This document shows, piece after piece, positions 28,399 to 38,021 of a stretch of 38,734 bases of DNA. This DNA is from an uncultured Alphaproteobacteria bacterium. Lineage in GTDB: Bacteria; Pseudomonadota; Alphaproteobacteria; Bin95. Position 1 is the first letter of the stretch. Each line of letters starts with the position of its first letter. Made by a program: the position numbers and the translations under genes. The notes under the pieces are model-generated. The model did no database searches and was not told where the DNA came from. It saw only the letters and a list, made by a program, of their open reading frames with translations. The stretch is from contig CALAHN010000021.1 in assembly GCA_937891825.1 (NCBI GenBank), positions 1 to 38,734 on the forward strand, read 5' to 3'.

Positions 28399-28586
28399 CC
28401 ATTTCTATTGAAGATGGATTGTTTTGAACTGGAATTTCTTGATAACTACCAATGGCGTAATGCCTATTTGCTATAGTATTTGAGCGGTTATTTCTTAGTA
28501 TTCCCGGACAATCAATCAACCAATCGTCCGCTCTATGGTGATGCGGCCGTCGGCTGATTAAACCGTCTGTCCGCGGGAGAGCTAGT
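28399..28586. other. AT-rich intergenic region upstream of the RTX exoprotein
   Basis: This gap is much more AT-rich than the genes around it and should hold the exoprotein promoter. TATAGT near 28475 could be a -10 element but no matching -35 at proper spacing is convincing. No -24/-12 pattern and no clear operator was found. GGGAGAG lies 7 bases before the exoprotein ATG. Confidence 0.4.
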
Positions 28587-31500
28587 ATGGCCGGAGAAAC
28601 GCCAGTTACGATCGATGGCGCCCTGAATGACTGGGACATCAACGATCGCCTCGACCTGGCCGGCGGCGGCGTCGCCGGGTTCGAGATGTATGGCCGCGTC
28701 GAAGGCGGCGCGTTTGTCCTGGCGGCCAACGCCGGCGCGACTGCGATCGGGCCAAACACGACCTTCTGGCTGAACACCGACAACGACGCTGCGACCGGCT
28801 TCCAGGTCTTCGGCTTCGCGGCGGGGGCTGAATTCAATGTCAATATCGGCGCCGACGGCGTTCCTCGCCTCTATACCGGCGACGCGGGCGAGACCCTGGT
28901 TTCAGATGCATTGGAAGTCGGCCGCTCGGCCGACGGCGGCATCCTCGAAATCCGCATCCCGGCGGCGCTCCTGGCCGCGCCCGGCGGCGAGATCCCGACC
29001 GCGGCGACGGTCTATGCGGACATCAACAACCAGACGTTCATTCCGAACGACTACTCCAGCTTCGCCTACAAGCTGGAAGCGCCGACGCCGGCGGAGACCG
29101 TCGCTGACATCATTTTCGACGGCGAGCTTGGCGAATGGAGCACAGCCGACCGGTTGGACGGCGCCGCGGACGGCGTCGAAGGATTTGCAGTTTACGGCCG
29201 CGAGACCGCCGACCATTTCGTCATAGCGCTTGAAGCCGACACGGCGATCGGCGCCAACACGACGCTTTGGCTGAACACCGACAACAACAACGCGACGGGT
29301 TTCCAGGTCTTCGGCTTCGCCGCGGGCGCGGAATACAACATCAATATCGGCGCGGACGGCGTTCCCCGCCTCTTCACGGGCGCCGCCGGCGAAACGCCGG
29401 TCCAGGCGGACCTGACCTACGGCTTCAACGCGACGCGGCAGCGGATGGAAATCGCCATCGCCAAGACCGATCTCGCCGGCGCGCCAGACAGTCTCCGCCT
29501 GCATGTCGACGTGAACGACCAGGCCTATATCCCGAACGACTATTCCAGCTTCTCCTATGAGATCGCGCCCGAAACCGCGCCGCCGCCGCCGCCCACGACC
29601 GATGTCATCGACGGGACGACGCTGAACGGCGACCTTTCGGACTGGGCGGCCGCGGATCGTCTGGACGGCGCCGCCGACGGCGTCGCGGGCTTTGCCGTGC
29701 ACGGCCGCGCGAGCGCCGATCATTTCCTGTTCGCGATCGAAGCGGATGTCGAGATCGGGGCCAACACGACCATCTGGATCAATACCGACAACAACAACGC
29801 GACCGGCTTCCAGGTCTTCGGCTTCGCGGCCGGCGCGGAATACAACATCAACATCGGTCAGGACGGCGCGCCGCAATTGTTCACCGGCGCCGCCGGCCAG
29901 ACCGCGGTCAATGCGCCGGTCGCGTTCGGCTACAGCGCCGACGGCAAGACACTGGAGCTCGCCATCGCCAAGGCCGACCTCGCCGGCGCGCCCGACAGCG
30001 TGGAAATCCATGTCGACGTGAACGAGCAGGCCTATATCCCGAACGATTACAGCCAGTTCTCCTACCGGGTCGGCGACCTGGTGCTGCCGCCCGCGCCGCC
30101 GCCAGTCACGGACGCGACGGCGGACAAGCGGATCGCCATCGTCTATTCCGAGAGCAGCGCCGCGAACTACTTCAACGAAACGTCCTATGCGCAGCTCATC
30201 ATGAGCGCGCAGCACCAGGCGATGATGGCCGGCACGCCCTTCGACCTCCTGAACGAAGCCGACCTGACGAACGCCGACCTACTTGCAACCTACGACGCGA
30301 TCGTGTTCCCGAGCTTCGCCAACGTCCGGGCCGATCTTCGCGACGCCATCTCGAGCGCGCTGGAAACGGCGTCGAACGAACACGGCGTCGGCATGATCGC
30401 GGCCGGCAATCTCATGACCAATGATGAAAATGGCGCCGCCTTCGGGAGCGATCCCTACAGCGTCATGAAGTCCCTGCTCGGCGTCGACTTCAAGGGCTTC
30501 GGCCAGGCGACCGATGCGGTCATCCGGGCCGGCGCCGACCATGCCGGGAATGAAACCCTCGCCGAAGGCGCTACGGTTCAATCCTATGACGGCGACTTCT
30601 TCTACATGCACTTCGAGCCGGTCGTTAGCGCCGACACGGTCGCGACGCTGACCGCGGGCGGCGAAACCTACAATGCCGTGCTGGCGACCAATACCGGCGG
30701 GCTGAACGTGCATTTCGCCAACGAATCGGTCTTCGCCGACACCGACCTTGCCTGGCAGGCCATCGACTGGGCCGTCGAGCGGGGCGAAATCAGCATCGAT
30801 CTGAAACTGACCCGCAGCGACCTCATCGTCGCGTCGCGCAATGACATGGATCAGTCCCAGGAGATGTTTGAAGTCAACCCGGACGATGGCCGTCCGCCGA
30901 TCTATCAGACCCTGGTATCGCTCCTTGAAGAATGGAAGGCTGACTATAATTTCGTCGGGTCCTACTACATCAATGTCGGCGACAACCCGCCAGACCAGCA
31001 GACGGATTGGGCCGTCTCCGGCCCTTATTATCAACAGATCATGGCGCTCGGGAATGAAATCGGCACCCATTCCTTCACCCACCCCGAAGACACCAACACC
31101 CTGACGCCAGCTCAGATCCAGTTCGAGTTCGAGCAGTCGATGGCGGTGATCGAAGCGGAGCTCGGCATCGACATCACGGGCGCTGCGGTGCCCGGCGCGC
31201 CCGAGAGCCTGCAGACCGCGCAGCAGATCATCCAGTATTTCGACTATCTATCCGGCGGCTATTCCGGCGTCGGCGCCGGCTATCCGGGCGCGTTCGGCTT
31301 CCTCGGGCCCGACCAGACCGACAAGGTCTATCTGGCGCCGAATATTTCCTTCGACTTTACCCTGGTCGAGTTCCAGGACATGACGCCGGAGGAAGCCTCG
31401 GCCGCCTGGCAGGCCGAGTTCGACGATTTGACCGCCAACAGTTCGACCCCCATCGCCCTCTGGCCCTGGCACGACTACGGCCCGACCGAGCACGATGACG

Positions 31501-32843
31501 ATCCCGATGAGAACCCAGGCTCCTTCTATTCGGAGGAGATGTTCACGAACTTCATCCAGACCGCCTTCAACGCCGGCGCGGAATTCGTGACGCTGAACGA
31601 CCTTGCCGGCCGCATCAAGAGCTTCCAGTCCTCAAGCGTCACGGTCGACAAGGACGGGAACGAAATCACCGCGACCGTGACAGGCGAGGGCGTGGGCGCC
31701 ATGGCGCTCGATCTGGACCTGAACGGCGGCGAGGGCGTCATCCAGAGCGTCGCCGGCTGGTATGCCTATGACGCAGACTCCGTCTTCCTGCCCGATGCTG
31801 GCGGAACCTTCCAGATCACGGTCGGCGCGACCCAGGACGATGTCACGCACATCACGGGCCTCGACCAACGCATGACGCTGACATCCGTCACGGGCGACGG
31901 CGAAGACCTGACCATCGGCGTGGTCGGCGAGGGCGATATCGCCATCGATCTGACGGCGCTCAACGGGCGGTCCTTCGCTGTCTCCGGCGCTGACGTCAAA
32001 AGCATCGTCGGCGACATCCTCACGCTCACGACAAAGGGCGCCGGCGCGCACGCCATCGGCGTCGACGTCGGCGGCGACAGCAACTTCGCGCCGGTCGCCG
32101 ATGATGACGCGACCACCCTCAAGGCGAATGCGCCGACGAGCAACCTGACGTCGATCCTGCTGGATGGCGACGCTGACGCCAACGGAGATGCGCTGTCGAT
32201 CGTCTCGCTGGACGGGACCGGCGTGCAGGGCGTCCTCAGCCTGACGAATGGTCAGGTCGCCTACAATCCGGGCAATGCCTTTGCGACGCTGCAAACCGGC
32301 CAGACCGCTCAGGAGCAGTTCTCCTACACGATCAGCGACGGCAAGGGCGGAACCGCGACCGCGACGGCTACGCTCACCATCGAAGGCGTCGCGCCGGCCT
32401 ACAACCTGATCCAGGGCGGCAGCGGCAAGGACAAGCTGACCGGCACGAACGGCGCCGATCTCATCCTCGGCGGCGACGGCGACGATACCCTGAACGGCAG
32501 GTCGGGCGGAGACCGTCTGGAAGGCGGCGCCGGCAACGACAAGCTGACCGGCGGCGGCGGCGCGGACGTCCTGATCGGCGGCGCCGGCAACGATACGCTG
32601 AAAGGCGGCGGCGGCGCCGATCTCTTCACGTTCGACGCCTTCGGCTTTGGGGTCGACCGCATCACCGACTTCACGAACGGGACGGACAAGATCGATCTTT
32701 CCGGGCTTGGCCTCTCCGGCATCGACCACCTCTCGATCTCCCAGTCGTTCCTGACGACAGTGATCAACTTCGGCAATGGCGATCAAGTCCAGTTGAGCGG
32801 CATGCTGTCCATCTTCATCGGCGCCGACGACTTCATCTTCTAA
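28587..32843 (+). CDS. giant RTX exoprotein: three beta-sandwich repeats plus polysaccharide-deacetylase-like domain
   Basis: 1418 residues with no N-terminal signal. Layout: three tandem ~168-residue repeats (1-167, 168-336, 337-505), each with DWxxxDRLD, WLNTDNNNATGFQVFGF and YIPNDYSSF, resembling CBM9/DOMON-type carbohydrate-binding sandwiches, joined by Pro-rich linkers. A Rossmann/GATase-like region follows (~513-735, RIAIVYSESS, YDAIVFPSF). Next is a NodB-like deacetylase region (~740-1020) with the metal motif HSFTH (His828, His832), Asp753/Asp755 in NDMD and WPWHDYG. Beta-rich segments and a cadherin-like repeat (~1168-1270) precede eight RTX nonapeptides (1277-1345, such as GAGNDTLKG) and a C-terminal type I secretion-like end (ADDFIF). 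The order recalls Agd3-like (CE18) polysaccharide deacetylases. Likely secreted by a type I system, not present here, and active on an extracellular polysaccharide; this is inferred. Confidence 0.85.
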   Translation: MAGETPVTIDGALNDWDINDRLDLAGGGVAGFEMYGRVEGGAFVLAANAGATAIGPNTTFWLNTDNDAATGFQVFGFAAGAEFNVNIGADGVPRLYTGDAGETLVSDALEVGRSADGGILEIRIPAALLAAPGGEIPTAATVYADINNQTFIPNDYSSFAYKLEAPTPAETVADIIFDGELGEWSTADRLDGAADGVEGFAVYGRETADHFVIALEADTAIGANTTLWLNTDNNNATGFQVFGFAAGAEYNINIGADGVPRLFTGAAGETPVQADLTYGFNATRQRMEIAIAKTDLAGAPDSLRLHVDVNDQAYIPNDYSSFSYEIAPETAPPPPPTTDVIDGTTLNGDLSDWAAADRLDGAADGVAGFAVHGRASADHFLFAIEADVEIGANTTIWINTDNNNATGFQVFGFAAGAEYNINIGQDGAPQLFTGAAGQTAVNAPVAFGYSADGKTLELAIAKADLAGAPDSVEIHVDVNEQAYIPNDYSQFSYRVGDLVLPPAPPPVTDATADKRIAIVYSESSAANYFNETSYAQLIMSAQHQAMMAGTPFDLLNEADLTNADLLATYDAIVFPSFANVRADLRDAISSALETASNEHGVGMIAAGNLMTNDENGAAFGSDPYSVMKSLLGVDFKGFGQATDAVIRAGADHAGNETLAEGATVQSYDGDFFYMHFEPVVSADTVATLTAGGETYNAVLATNTGGLNVHFANESVFADTDLAWQAIDWAVERGEISIDLKLTRSDLIVASRNDMDQSQEMFEVNPDDGRPPIYQTLVSLLEEWKADYNFVGSYYINVGDNPPDQQTDWAVSGPYYQQIMALGNEIGTHSFTHPEDTNTLTPAQIQFEFEQSMAVIEAELGIDITGAAVPGAPESLQTAQQIIQYFDYLSGGYSGVGAGYPGAFGFLGPDQTDKVYLAPNISFDFTLVEFQDMTPEEASAAWQAEFDDLTANSSTPIALWPWHDYGPTEHDDDPDENPGSFYSEEMFTNFIQTAFNAGAEFVTLNDLAGRIKSFQSSSVTVDKDGNEITATVTGEGVGAMALDLDLNGGEGVIQSVAGWYAYDADSVFLPDAGGTFQITVGATQDDVTHITGLDQRMTLTSVTGDGEDLTIGVVGEGDIAIDLTALNGRSFAVSGADVKSIVGDILTLTTKGAGAHAIGVDVGGDSNFAPVADDDATTLKANAPTSNLTSILLDGDADANGDALSIVSLDGTGVQGVLSLTNGQVAYNPGNAFATLQTGQTAQEQFSYTISDGKGGTATATATLTIEGVAPAYNLIQGGSGKDKLTGTNGADLILGGDGDDTLNGRSGGDRLEGGAGNDKLTGGGGADVLIGGAGNDTLKGGGGADLFTFDAFGFGVDRITDFTNGTDKIDLSGLGLSGIDHLSISQSFLTTVINFGNGDQVQLSGMLSIFIGADDFIF
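28599..30080 (+). repeat. three tandem ~500-bp coding repeats in the exoprotein
   Basis: The stretch TTCCAGGTCTTCGGCTTCGC recurs at 28800, 29301 and 29808, giving periods of 501 and 507 bases (167 and 169 codons). The core from the NTD motif to the GRPxLFTG-like turn is nearly identical at protein level. Copies 2 and 3 are closest, and copy 1 is more diverged (NDAA for NNNA, EFNVN for EYNIN). This suggests internal duplication, with scope for copy-number change by recombination. Confidence 0.85.
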
Positions 32844-36243: not shown

Positions 36244-37296
36244 TTAGCTGCACGCAATCGAGTAAATGTCCTGAACGTCGCCCGGCAGCGGCATCTCGGA
36301 CCAGGTGGCGCCGCCGTCCTGGGTCCCGAAGATTTCGCCATTGTAGCGCGCCCCGATGATCACCTGATCCGGGTTCGATTTGCTGAGACCGACGGACATG
36401 ATCGTCCCGTGCACCTGCACCTTGTCGAAGCGGGTCCAGGTTTCGCCAGCGTCCTGGCTGCGATAGAGGCCGCCATCGTGGCTCGCGGCGGAAACGGACA
36501 AGGCCGCGAACAAGGTCTTCGGATCGTGGGGCGATACCCGGATGTCGCGGCCATAAGTGGTCGGCGAGAAGCGCTTGACCTCCATGTCCTGCCACGACTT
36601 GCCGGCGTCTTCCGTCTTGAAGAGGCCCATCCGGAGCGCAACGATGGGCGTATCCGGCCTGGCGGGCGCGATGGCGATGGCGTGACAGTCGAGCATGCCC
36701 TCGGCCTTCGTCTCCTTCTGGACGATGGAGCTCTCCAGATGCGGCAGCTTCGACAGTTCAACCATGTGATCGCTGGTGTCGGTCCAGGTCTGGCCGCCGT
36801 CGGTCGTGCGCATGGTGCCGGCTATTTCGCAGGCGGCGTAAATCTCGTTCGGCCGGCCGGGGCGCTGGACCATGCGCATGACGCGCGGCGCGAACGGACC
36901 CTTGCAGCGTTCCGGCATGCCGGGGTTCGGCAGCTTCGTCCAGCTTTTGCCGCGGTCGTCGGAGCGATACACGTCAATCGGCGCGCCGCCCGCATAGACC
37001 GTGTCCGGCTGGCCCTCGATCGCCAGGAAGCTCCATATCTGCTTGTCCGTGTCCGGAAACGCCGCCTTCGCGAAGGTTGCGCCGCTGTCATCGCTCCGCC
37101 ACACGCCGTTAGTCGTGCCCGCGAACACCACCTTCGGATCGTCGGGGTGAACATAGACCGTGTGCGCCGGATGCGCGCCGAACACATGCTCCCATGCGCC
37201 GCCGCTGGCGGCCCGGCGGAACACCCCGACCGCGCCCGTCGCGTCCGGACGCCCGACATACCCGGCGACGCCTGCAAAAATGTAGGATTCAGCCAT
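36244..37296 (-). CDS. Asp-box (BNR-repeat) beta-propeller protein
   Basis: A 350-residue cytosolic-looking protein (no signal peptide) built from at least six Asp-box turns: SDDSGATF, SDDRGKSW, TTDGGQTW, TEDAGKSW, SQDAGETW and TQDGGATW. The repeats fit a single sialidase/VPS10-like propeller. The catalytic residues of a sialidase (Arg triad, FRIP motif) are not seen, so an enzyme role is unlikely or unknown. GGGAG 8 bases upstream supports the ATG reading MAESYIFAG. It is divergent from a gene for a protein of unknown function across 146 bases, suggesting shared regulation. Confidence 0.85.
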   Translation of the reverse strand: MAESYIFAGVAGYVGRPDATGAVGVFRRAASGGAWEHVFGAHPAHTVYVHPDDPKVVFAGTTNGVWRSDDSGATFAKAAFPDTDKQIWSFLAIEGQPDTVYAGGAPIDVYRSDDRGKSWTKLPNPGMPERCKGPFAPRVMRMVQRPGRPNEIYAACEIAGTMRTTDGGQTWTDTSDHMVELSKLPHLESSIVQKETKAEGMLDCHAIAIAPARPDTPIVALRMGLFKTEDAGKSWQDMEVKRFSPTTYGRDIRVSPHDPKTLFAALSVSAASHDGGLYRSQDAGETWTRFDKVQVHGTIMSVGLSKSNPDQVIIGARYNGEIFGTQDGGATWSEMPLPGDVQDIYSIACS

Positions 37297-37442
37297 CGAA
37301 ATGCTCCCGCAAATGCATTGATCCAGTTCGCAGGAACCGTAGGTCCGCCGCCGCTGTCGGTCAATCGTCCCGGCGATAGACAAACCAACGGGCGCGCGGG
37401 TACGCTCAATCATACGATCTTCAACACAAGGAGGCTGCGTCC

Positions 37443-38021
37443 ATGACCGCCGATCCAAATCGCGTGCTCTGCTGCGGCGAAAATCCGTTCATCCGTATTT
37501 CGGAAACCGATGGCGGGCCGGAGACCACGGTCGCCAGCTTCTGGCGGAACGTCATGTCCCCCGTCGGCCCCGGCCATGTGCTGTACATGAAAAGCGAATT
37601 GACCGCCGACCGCTGGCGCATCTGGTCCGACAACATCGCCATGGCGCGCTGGCTGCAGGAGACCATTCAGGGCGTGCTCAATCCCGAACTGAAGGATACC
37701 TCGATCCCCGTCGAGGAAGCATCCTTCGAGAAAGACGGCGATCCCCACAAATTCTATACGGAATATGTCATCGGCAGCGACGCCGAAATCTCCCTCACCT
37801 GGTTCAATCTGGGCGACCCCCTGATGATCCACACCCAGCCTGGAACCGGCCCCGGCCAGCGCCCCTACGGCGTCAACACTGTCCTGATCCCAGCCGCCGG
37901 CACGCGGCTCGTCATGGACGGCGAGCAGGCGCGCGGCCAGGCCTGGGCCAGGGAACGCGAAGGCCGGCCGTTCAGCACCTCCGCTCTCGCTTTCGCCGAA
38001 AGCTGGACCGAGGCCCGCTAA
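37443..38021 (+). CDS. conserved-looking hypothetical protein
   Basis: A 192-residue protein with no signal peptide or transmembrane segment. It is rich in Trp and Gly (WRNVMSPVGPGHVLYMKSEL, WSDNIAMARWLQETI, LTWFNLGDPLMIHTQPGTGPG). The alternation of strands and turns suggests a beta-rich fold. No family was recognised. AAGGAGG about 9 bases upstream of the ATG and normal codon use support it as real. It is divergent from the Asp-box propeller gene and 13 bases from the convergent TonB gene. Confidence 0.8.
   Translation: MTADPNRVLCCGENPFIRISETDGGPETTVASFWRNVMSPVGPGHVLYMKSELTADRWRIWSDNIAMARWLQETIQGVLNPELKDTSIPVEEASFEKDGDPHKFYTEYVIGSDAEISLTWFNLGDPLMIHTQPGTGPGQRPYGVNTVLIPAAGTRLVMDGEQARGQAWAREREGRPFSTSALAFAESWTEAR

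Follow-up and report, generated by a model that had tools for sequence, protein, structure and literature searches.

A candidate RTX-type exopolysaccharide deacetylase with a PelA-like core in an uncultured alphaproteobacterium

A 38,734-nucleotide stretch of DNA from an uncultured alphaproteobacterium (contig CALAHN010000021.1 of assembly GCA_937891825.1, positions 1 to 38,734 of the forward strand; hereafter the window) carries at 28587-32843 a gene for a 1418-residue protein, in which a deacetylase-like core is preceded by three repeats of a binding-module type and followed by a calcium-binding RTX tail. Which family of carbohydrate esterases does this core belong to, and on which polysaccharide does it act? 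The answer that I consider probable is that the protein is a type I-secreted, metal-dependent polysaccharide de-N-acetylase acting outside the cell on a self-made exopolysaccharide of the Pel type, rich in N-acetylgalactosamine (GalNAc), as a second enzyme beside PelA in this organism and as a replacement for PelA in Rhodobacterales. This proposal as to substrate, activity, residue roles, export route and site of action is drawn from the sequence, its domains and their conservation, from gene linkage, and from the loss of catalytic residues in certain PelA homologues.

Domain layout and predicted active site

The open reading frame, its start, its end and its plus strand agree with the preliminary description of this DNA, which had been made from the sequence alone. 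The frame matches itself at 100% in its own genome, the stop-free frame measures 1433 amino acids, and G+C at codon position 3 is 0.85. The features of the gene are the following.

28399-28586, no strand: A+T-rich stretch 5' of the gene, perhaps a promoter region (G+C 0.44 at 28400-28599)
28587-32843, plus strand: whole gene, exoprotein of 1418 amino acids
28602-29099, plus strand: CBM9-like repeat 1 (55% identity with repeat 2; fold taken from the repeat 2 model)
29103-29594, plus strand: CBM9-like repeat 2, the one that was modelled
29610-30101, plus strand: CBM9-like repeat 3 (67% identity with repeat 2 in the alignment)
30123-30800, plus strand: ThuA/GATase-like alpha/beta domain (approximate boundaries, from VIA-align)
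30801-31646, plus strand: NodB-type carbohydrate esterase (deacetylase) domain (approximate boundaries, from Polysacc_deac_1 and the hhalign alignment with PelA)
30837-30851, plus strand: motif 1, R751-N-D753-M-D755, aligned with the H-x-D-x-D of PelA
31068-31082, plus strand: motif 2, H828-S-F-T-H832, proposed metal ligands
31467-31475, plus strand: W961-H962-D963, H962 being the proposed catalytic acid
31647-32066, plus strand: beta-rich C-terminal domain of the core (strands in the model; within the full-length PelA alignment; alone, no clear match)
32082-32384, plus strand: cadherin/Big_9-like repeat (Big_9 48.6 bits, Cadherin_5 44.1 bits, both over the cut-off)
32403-32633, plus strand: RTX calcium-binding nonapeptides
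32634-32840, plus strand: C-terminal region, putative type I secretion signal, common to other RTX proteins of the genome

The modules named in the preliminary description were recovered. In a Pfam search the NodB-type domain appeared as Polysacc_deac_1 at residues 766-874 (25.3 bits, cut-off 23.1) and its cadherin-like repeat as Big_9 and Cadherin_5 at residues 1166-1266, with the RTX repeats after them; a match with Peptidase_M10_C extends to residue 1387. Eight RTX repeats had been counted: eight do stand in register by eye and HemolysinCabind scores 56.9 bits, but the strict pattern finds six. The GATase-like domain is matched in VIA-align by GATase-like domains of GH42 enzymes (Z up to 15.7) and by ThuA (1t0b, Z 12.8).

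The protein has the features of a type I substrate, namely RTX repeats over the Pfam cut-off and no Sec signal peptide (by eye). When the full protein is compared with its own genome, every match besides itself starts at residue 1166 or later, that is, in the cadherin-like and RTX part, and residues 1275-1418 match RTX proteins of this genome up to or near the C terminus. A PrtD-type exporter is encoded on contig C55 of the genome (706.9 bits, cut-off 510.15). RTX-type frames are numerous in the genome, being found on 23 contigs besides the window's own, with several open over more than 1000 amino acids; type I secretion is probably heavily used by this organism.

The three tandem N-terminal repeats, of about 165 amino acids each, had been called CBM9/DOMON-like sandwiches, a label that is fair for their fold. 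An AlphaFold2 model of repeat 2 (pLDDT 81.0, pTM 0.81) was compared with known structures. Foldseek gave nothing at E <= 0.001, its first three matches being CBM9 modules with E values of 1.5e-3 to 4.8e-3 and a probability of 1.00, and the first three rows of VIA-align were again CBM9 modules (Z 9.6, 9.5 and 9.1). Within about one Z unit stand 4jpq, a putative carbohydrate-binding protein (8.9), and 2ivf, chain C of ethylbenzene dehydrogenase (8.6). By sequence, the N-terminal repeats had no PDB match of any kind, and no CBM9 model was among the Pfam matches at E <= 1 of the ten repeats searched. In the plasmid collection the repeat was found in seven records, all seven being those that bear the deacetylase.

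The predicted active site is strictly conserved. In 11 aligned cores of the family, which include near-duplicates (two from Moritella, two from Cereibacter, two from Sulfitobacter), R751, D753, D755, H828, H832, H962 and D963 are invariant, so that the residues His828, His832 and Asp753 singled out in the preliminary description are conserved in all members, and residue 752 is Asn or Thr. Polysacc_deac_1 is matched by five of ten family members at E <= 0.01. The pattern of an Asp, an HxxxH and a later His is that of a NodB/CE4-like metal site, in which Asp753 would be the catalytic base, Arg751 the residue that activates it, Asp755, His828 and His832 the metal ligands, and His962 the acid. For PelA, D528 is proposed as base, D530, H600 and H604 as metal ligands and H761 as acid, with H526 standing in for an arginine that CE4 and CE18 enzymes bring from another motif (PMC12022489). 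Agd3, the CE18 enzyme, has an adjacent base and ligand (D377, D378), an arginine, R613, and a 64-residue insertion between motifs (PMC7229062). The spacing from motif 1 to motif 2 (D755 to H828) is 73 residues in the window protein, 70 in PelA, 132 in Agd3 and about 90 in a Streptomyces CE18 protein. No column from residue 840 to H962 has Arg in six or more of the 11 rows, so no arginine of the CM3 type was found there; within residues 840-1010 the sole such column is 1009, after H962. Since the base in the Agd3 register would be residue 752, an Asn or Thr, and since no arginine column exists, the PelA register is the better one, and would place Arg751 at the position of PelA His526.

This conservation bears on one alternative, that the protein is a non-catalytic matrix or adhesion protein whose dead deacetylase fold binds polymer. 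Several binding-type modules together with an RTX tail would suit such a protein, and PelA homologues devoid of catalytic residues do occur in Rhodobacterales clusters (see below). Against it, the predicted catalytic residues are all invariant in 11 of 11 cores, at identities among the measured members that go down to about 41-42%, and I regard this alternative as very improbable.

Placement of the core relative to PelA and CE18

The preliminary description had likened the core to CE18 and Agd3, and had proposed a profile search of residues 513-1020 against the CE18, PelA and NodB families. The NodB match proved to be over its Pfam cut-off, and in profile comparison PelA fitted better than CE18, whereas membership of CE18 was not sustained. 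When the family was aligned with nine PelA proteins by hhalign, the score was 45.3 over 378 columns (E 2.4e-4), with all three motifs in register: SRNDMDQ on SHVDGDG, EIGTHSFTH on EIASHTFSH and WHDYG on YHMYS, the last pair standing directly behind a four-column gap. The maximum was 30.8 in 100 column shuffles, and 27.2 in reversed order. With eight bacterial CE18 proteins (from Moritella, three Deinococcus, Thermus, Burkholderia, Kocuria and Streptomyces), the score was 34.6 over 64 columns, with a probability of 8.9. Among structures compared with a model of the core by VIA-align, PelA of P. thermotolerans (9cgy) aligned over 427 residues, spanning model positions 5-656, with a Z of 15.2; among the 50 rows listed it is the sole polysaccharide deacetylase and by far the longest alignment (the next being 233), and the others, apart from three glycoside hydrolases, match mainly the GATase-like domain.

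A number of results weigh against a placement close to PelA. The hhalign probability with PelA is just 43.6%, and the CE18 score also exceeds its 60 shuffles (maximum 25.8); both scores thus exceed chance. Taken alone, the deacetylase domain does fit PelA (39.0), but only in a stretch of 30 columns at motif 2. The GATase-like domain gives a higher score with CE18 (34.0 over 56 columns) than with PelA (17.4), and the beta domain is weak with both. Since the domain-by-domain result is mixed, the register of motifs 1 and 3 depends on the full-length alignment. The family profile, searched against the PDB, found neither PelA nor Agd3 at E <= 5, and a single-sequence PDB search gave no PelA match. 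The core model, built on a five-row alignment, is weak (pLDDT 59.8, pTM 0.53, and less than 50 at motif 2 and beyond), the 9cgy alignment has a root mean square deviation of 10.9 A, and the glycoside hydrolases 8oug, 5gsl and 5gsm span the model too, with 223-233 residues aligned. PelA is not among the best 50 Foldseek matches of the core model, the best-ranked of which are mostly GATase-like domains of other enzymes. Agd3 is not among the Foldseek or VIA-align matches listed for the core model, which excludes nothing.

Could the protein then be a true CE18 enzyme of the Agd3 type? The three domains come in the same order in both, the score of the full profile lies above chance, and the GATase-like domain leans to CE18. 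Bacterial CE18 genes are likewise linked to GH114 and pel-like genes (PMC7229062), and pelF was found beside three CE18 loci. Because the Streptomyces CE18 protein has a spacing of about 90, motif spacing does not define bacterial CE18 and is not exclusive by itself. These points are outweighed by the active site, where the CM3 arginine is not found, though most, not all, bacterial Agd3 homologues have it (PMC7229062), and where the base in the Agd3 register would be an Asn or Thr; by the deacetylase domain alone, which scores 19.6 with CE18, at noise level; and by the failure of the family profile to reach Agd3, although PelA is missed too, whereas a Moritella CE18 protein finds Agd3 at 2.3e-13. 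Membership of CE18 was rejected on the missing CM3 arginine, the better PelA profile fit and the noise-level score of the deacetylase domain, and I consider it quite improbable.

A single genome speaks to the separateness of the three families. Moritella sp. PE36 has a canonical PelA (9cgy at E 8e-163), an Agd3-like CE18 protein that carries an insertion (the one that finds Agd3 at 2.3e-13) and a member of the present family, all different:

L034:109-2613, minus strand; L031:5036-7834; L013:9860-12802: the Moritella sp. PE36 trio, L013 being the member of the present family

Since this organism has all three, the present family is distinct from both PelA and CE18. Moritella is named among the holders of Agd3 homologues (PMC7229062); the homologue meant there is assumed to be the separate 834-residue CE18 protein. 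The core of the window protein appears nearer to PelA (CE21) than to CE18, as a separate branch with Arg at the position of the PelA His.

Linkage to pel genes and PelA homologues without catalytic residues

If the core resembles PelA, is the gene associated with a pel operon? In the closest relative, the alphaproteobacterial metagenome-assembled genome OFTM385 (56% identity over core residues 513-1020), the deacetylase gene stands directly 3' of a TPR gene in the PelB position, PelD (GAF), a gene in the pelE position, PelF and PelG, on a contig that also encodes a small hydrolase (81 bits with GH114), a PelA deacetylase with intact motifs and, by eye, a galE-like gene. On the Rhodobacterales plasmids galE lies 3' of the deacetylase gene (in Cereibacter after glmS). 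The Sulfitobacter and Cereibacter plasmids have a GH114 gene too and, farther on, an export gene, pelF and pelG, as far as the retrieved stretches extend; in Paracoccus a GH114 match below the cut-off lies inside a galE-annotated frame, and PelG lies across the start of the record. Altogether PelG is present in the genomes or records of 8 of 9 relatives; across the class, as a background, it occurs in 20 of 385 genomes. GH114 occurs in 8 of 9 relatives, two of these matches falling short of the curated cut-off. The near-copies L019 and L020 are omitted from both counts. With the window genome added, a Fisher test of 9/10 against 19/384 gives 1e-10, a guide value since the rows are related and some are plasmids; by genus the count is 6/7.

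The window genome itself possesses a pel system, on two further contigs:

L036:8480-10759, contig C146: PelA of the window genome, without a hydrolase domain
L024:1-8939, contig C80: the remaining pel genes of the window genome

Contig C146 ends with an intact pelA and the first part of a gene in the pelB position; contig C80 opens with TPR genes, after which come PelD (a GAF gene), a gene in the pelE position, pelF and pelG; together they are apparently one operon cut by the assembly. Within the initial TPR part of C80 the reading frame seems to change near base 1000-1500. The GH114 gene of the genome is apart from the pel genes, on C129. That the window gene substitutes for a missing PelA in its own genome was considered, and is ruled out by the intact PelA on C146.

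The situation is different in Rhodobacterales. Absence of PelA from their plasmids had been suggested by the lack of a match with Moritella PelA at E <= 1e-10; this was overturned by a search with the PelA of the window genome, which brought up PelA homologues in the clusters of all three genera, Cereibacter, Paracoccus and Sulfitobacter. Four of them, from three genera (L014, L016, L017 and L018; the copies from L015, L019 and L020 did not enter the alignment), were aligned with nine other PelA proteins.

L016:21956-24250, L017:21939-24176, L018:19850-21754 and L014:21827-23743, minus strand: PelA homologues poor in catalytic residues, annotated as hypothetical proteins

In these four, HxDGDG has become VVRPEG, TVAPEG or MLLAEG, and the histidine of YYH is absent from every one. 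Both histidines of HxxxH are lost in the Cereibacter and Paracoccus homologues; in the two from Sulfitobacter the HxxxH region is partly deleted, with a His in the column of the first histidine and the second absent. Catalytic residues are therefore lost at six of six positions in Cereibacter and Paracoccus and at five of six in the two Sulfitobacter proteins, whereas all six are kept in all nine other PelA proteins, those of Moritella, OFTM385 and the window genome included. On the four plasmids, to which the search was confined, the RTX-type enzyme is the sole intact deacetylase of its kind that was found; the chromosomes could bear a further PelA. In these relatives the deacetylation step may have moved outside the cell.

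Two further observations concern these clusters. In Cereibacter sphaeroides EBL0706 the PelA homologue (L015:21938-24000) carries the annotation of two separate hypothetical genes, and its match is split into two parts; a break in the reading frame is suggested by this. After the PelA homologue of L016 comes a gene for 441 amino acids (L016:20618-21943, minus strand) with no Pfam match at E <= 0.01; genes of similar size, alike in size and position alone, occupy its place in the Paracoccus and Sulfitobacter clusters, and it is possibly an unrecognised export part.

A mechanism can be proposed that joins these elements. In Pseudomonas aeruginosa, PelA deacetylates Pel in the periplasm before export via PelB (PMC12022489). 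Here the polymer would leave the cell with its acetyl groups, or some of them, in place. After export, the RTX tail of the enzyme would fold on binding calcium, the polymer would be gripped by the three CBM9-like modules together with the GATase-like domain, and the NodB domain would strip acetyl groups in the matrix. In the window organism the secreted enzyme would act in addition to an intact PelA in the periplasm; in the Rhodobacterales relatives it would take the place of a PelA whose catalytic residues are gone.

The preliminary description had left the polysaccharide as self-made or foreign. That the protein is a probably secreted exopolysaccharide deacetylase is supported by the sequence evidence, and the Pel linkage favours a self-made polymer; a foreign target is retained as a rival. 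Such an enzyme would be a secreted deacetylase or esterase for the polysaccharide of another organism (competitor biofilm, algal or fungal polymer), used in scavenging or attack. This would accord with facts that tell against the self-made polymer: the window gene sits among catabolic genes, between a glutathione S-transferase (GST) gene and a NIPSNAP gene and outside the pel operon; its genome already has an intact PelA; and Silicimonas algicola has the deacetylase gene with neither a PelG nor a GH114 match. Other observations weigh against the main proposal without bearing on the foreign target: no family member at E <= 1e-10 is found in the 19 further genomes of the class that have PelG (the PelG and family samples both number 385 genomes, and their listed handles agree), the exporter gene does not adjoin the deacetylase gene, and the plasmid-borne relatives have few RTX repeats. 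Against the foreign target, the gene is directly 3' of the pel genes in the closest relative, PelG occurs in 8 of 9 relatives, and the Rhodobacterales plasmid gene lies near galE, GH114 and pelFG, alongside a PelA stripped of its catalytic residues. The foreign target seems to me unlikely, and a self-made polymer of the Pel type the better candidate.

A wider claim is more tentative, and somewhat less likely than not: that a new carbohydrate esterase family, defined by Arg-x-Asp-x-Asp, a PelA-like core, polymer-binding CBM9-like repeats and RTX export, shifts the maturation of Pel-like polymers from the periplasm to the extracellular matrix, and that PelA in Rhodobacterales has been replaced and survives solely as a catalytically dead partner, perhaps a structural part of export. 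If a separately exported relative does work beside a catalytically dead PelA, the deacetylation step can move outside the cell. This would bear on the coupling of Pel export and deacetylation, on the reason for retaining an inactive PelA and on the source of the positive charge of a Pel-type matrix. The family also supplies a candidate enzyme, together with modules that may bind the polymer, for study in environmental bacteria such as Cereibacter sphaeroides.

Distribution, locus and comparison with known systems

The family is rare and patchy in its distribution. Relatives of the core, besides OFTM385, are found in Silicimonas algicola, in two Moritella and on seven plasmids of Sulfitobacter, Cereibacter and Paracoccus, and one further relative occurs in the class of Moritella (2 of 369 genomes there, Moritella counted). 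In the window's class, 1 of 385 sampled genomes has the family at E <= 1e-10, and it is the window's own; likewise, among 60 related genomes searched, its own included, the family is solely in that genome. A phage or viral origin was rejected, none of 58 pattern matches in viral contigs being a relative by tblastn.

The tails of these proteins are not uniform. By eye, 8 of 11 members have an RTX-type tail without a Sec signal. In these, six strict nonapeptides are found in the window and OFTM385 proteins alone, the two that the Pfam RTX test covered; the other six RTX-type members have one or two pattern matches, and in each Sulfitobacter protein one of the two falls in the beta domain. The two Moritella members have a hydrophobic N terminus and a core that begins at residue 48, which leaves no space for repeats, and the last member is lipoprotein-like (by eye). 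The export route seems, from these sequences, to differ between family members.

At the window locus, the same-genus genome G001 shares the order of the carboxyltransferase, GST, NIPSNAP and major facilitator superfamily genes; its GST and NIPSNAP matches lie 18 bases apart and enclose no deacetylase, where the window has the 4.3-kb deacetylase gene. G001 has PelG, and the deacetylase family was not found in it. Since G001 lacks the gene at the same locus, the gene was either gained in the window's lineage or lost in G001. The A+T-rich stretch 5' of the gene would fit a promoter of its own, although a sigma-70 consensus was looked for there and not found. Farther along the window, 36244-37458 (minus strand) encodes a Sortilin/BNR-repeat protein, which matched a model of the F510_1955 family glycosylhydrolases below the cut-off.

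How does this protein compare with systems already described? The literature already describes Agd3 homologues of bacteria that lie close to GH114 and pel-like genes (PMC7229062), pel operons with rearrangements that affect pelA (PMC7112194), and the families CE21 (PMC12022489) and CE26 (PMC13254593). Among the best-ranked papers, judged by title and the start of the abstract, neither an RTX or type I-secreted PelA-like deacetylase nor a Rhodobacterales PelA without catalytic residues was found.

The N-terminal repeats have CBM9 modules (1i82, 7nwn) as their best structural matches, tied with a few related sandwich folds, and no sequence similarity to them is detectable. PelADA of Bacillus cereus, the CE26 enzyme with CBM114 (PMC13254593), compared here by its description and not by profile, is a deacetylase that stands alone, acts on Pel outside the cytoplasm, as the window protein is proposed to do, and has an alpha/beta/alpha binding domain ahead of its catalytic part, but it is membrane-anchored and not an RTX protein, and has an adjacent Asp pair and a late arginine, R458. 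Agd3 of Aspergillus fumigatus, the CE18 enzyme with CBM87, shares with the window protein the order of three domains, a GH114 gene nearby in clusters, a weak profile match in the GATase-like domain and, as proposed for the window protein, secretion and a GalNAc-rich polymer, and differs from it in the adjacent D377 and D378, the 64-residue insertion, the CM3 arginine and a deacetylase domain without a profile match. If the window protein does act on a Pel-type polymer in the matrix, it would be the bacterial counterpart of Agd3, which deacetylates fungal galactosaminogalactan outside the cell. Closest of all is PelA of Pseudomonas (CE21, 9cgy), which has the same order of GATase-like, deacetylase and beta-rich domains, a D-x-D with a basic residue two positions before it, a spacing of 70 against 73, and linkage to pel genes; the window protein differs in having Arg for His526, three CBM9-like repeats, an RTX tail and no hydrolase domain, and, given that tail and the absence of an evident Sec signal, it is probably extracellular where PelA is periplasmic.

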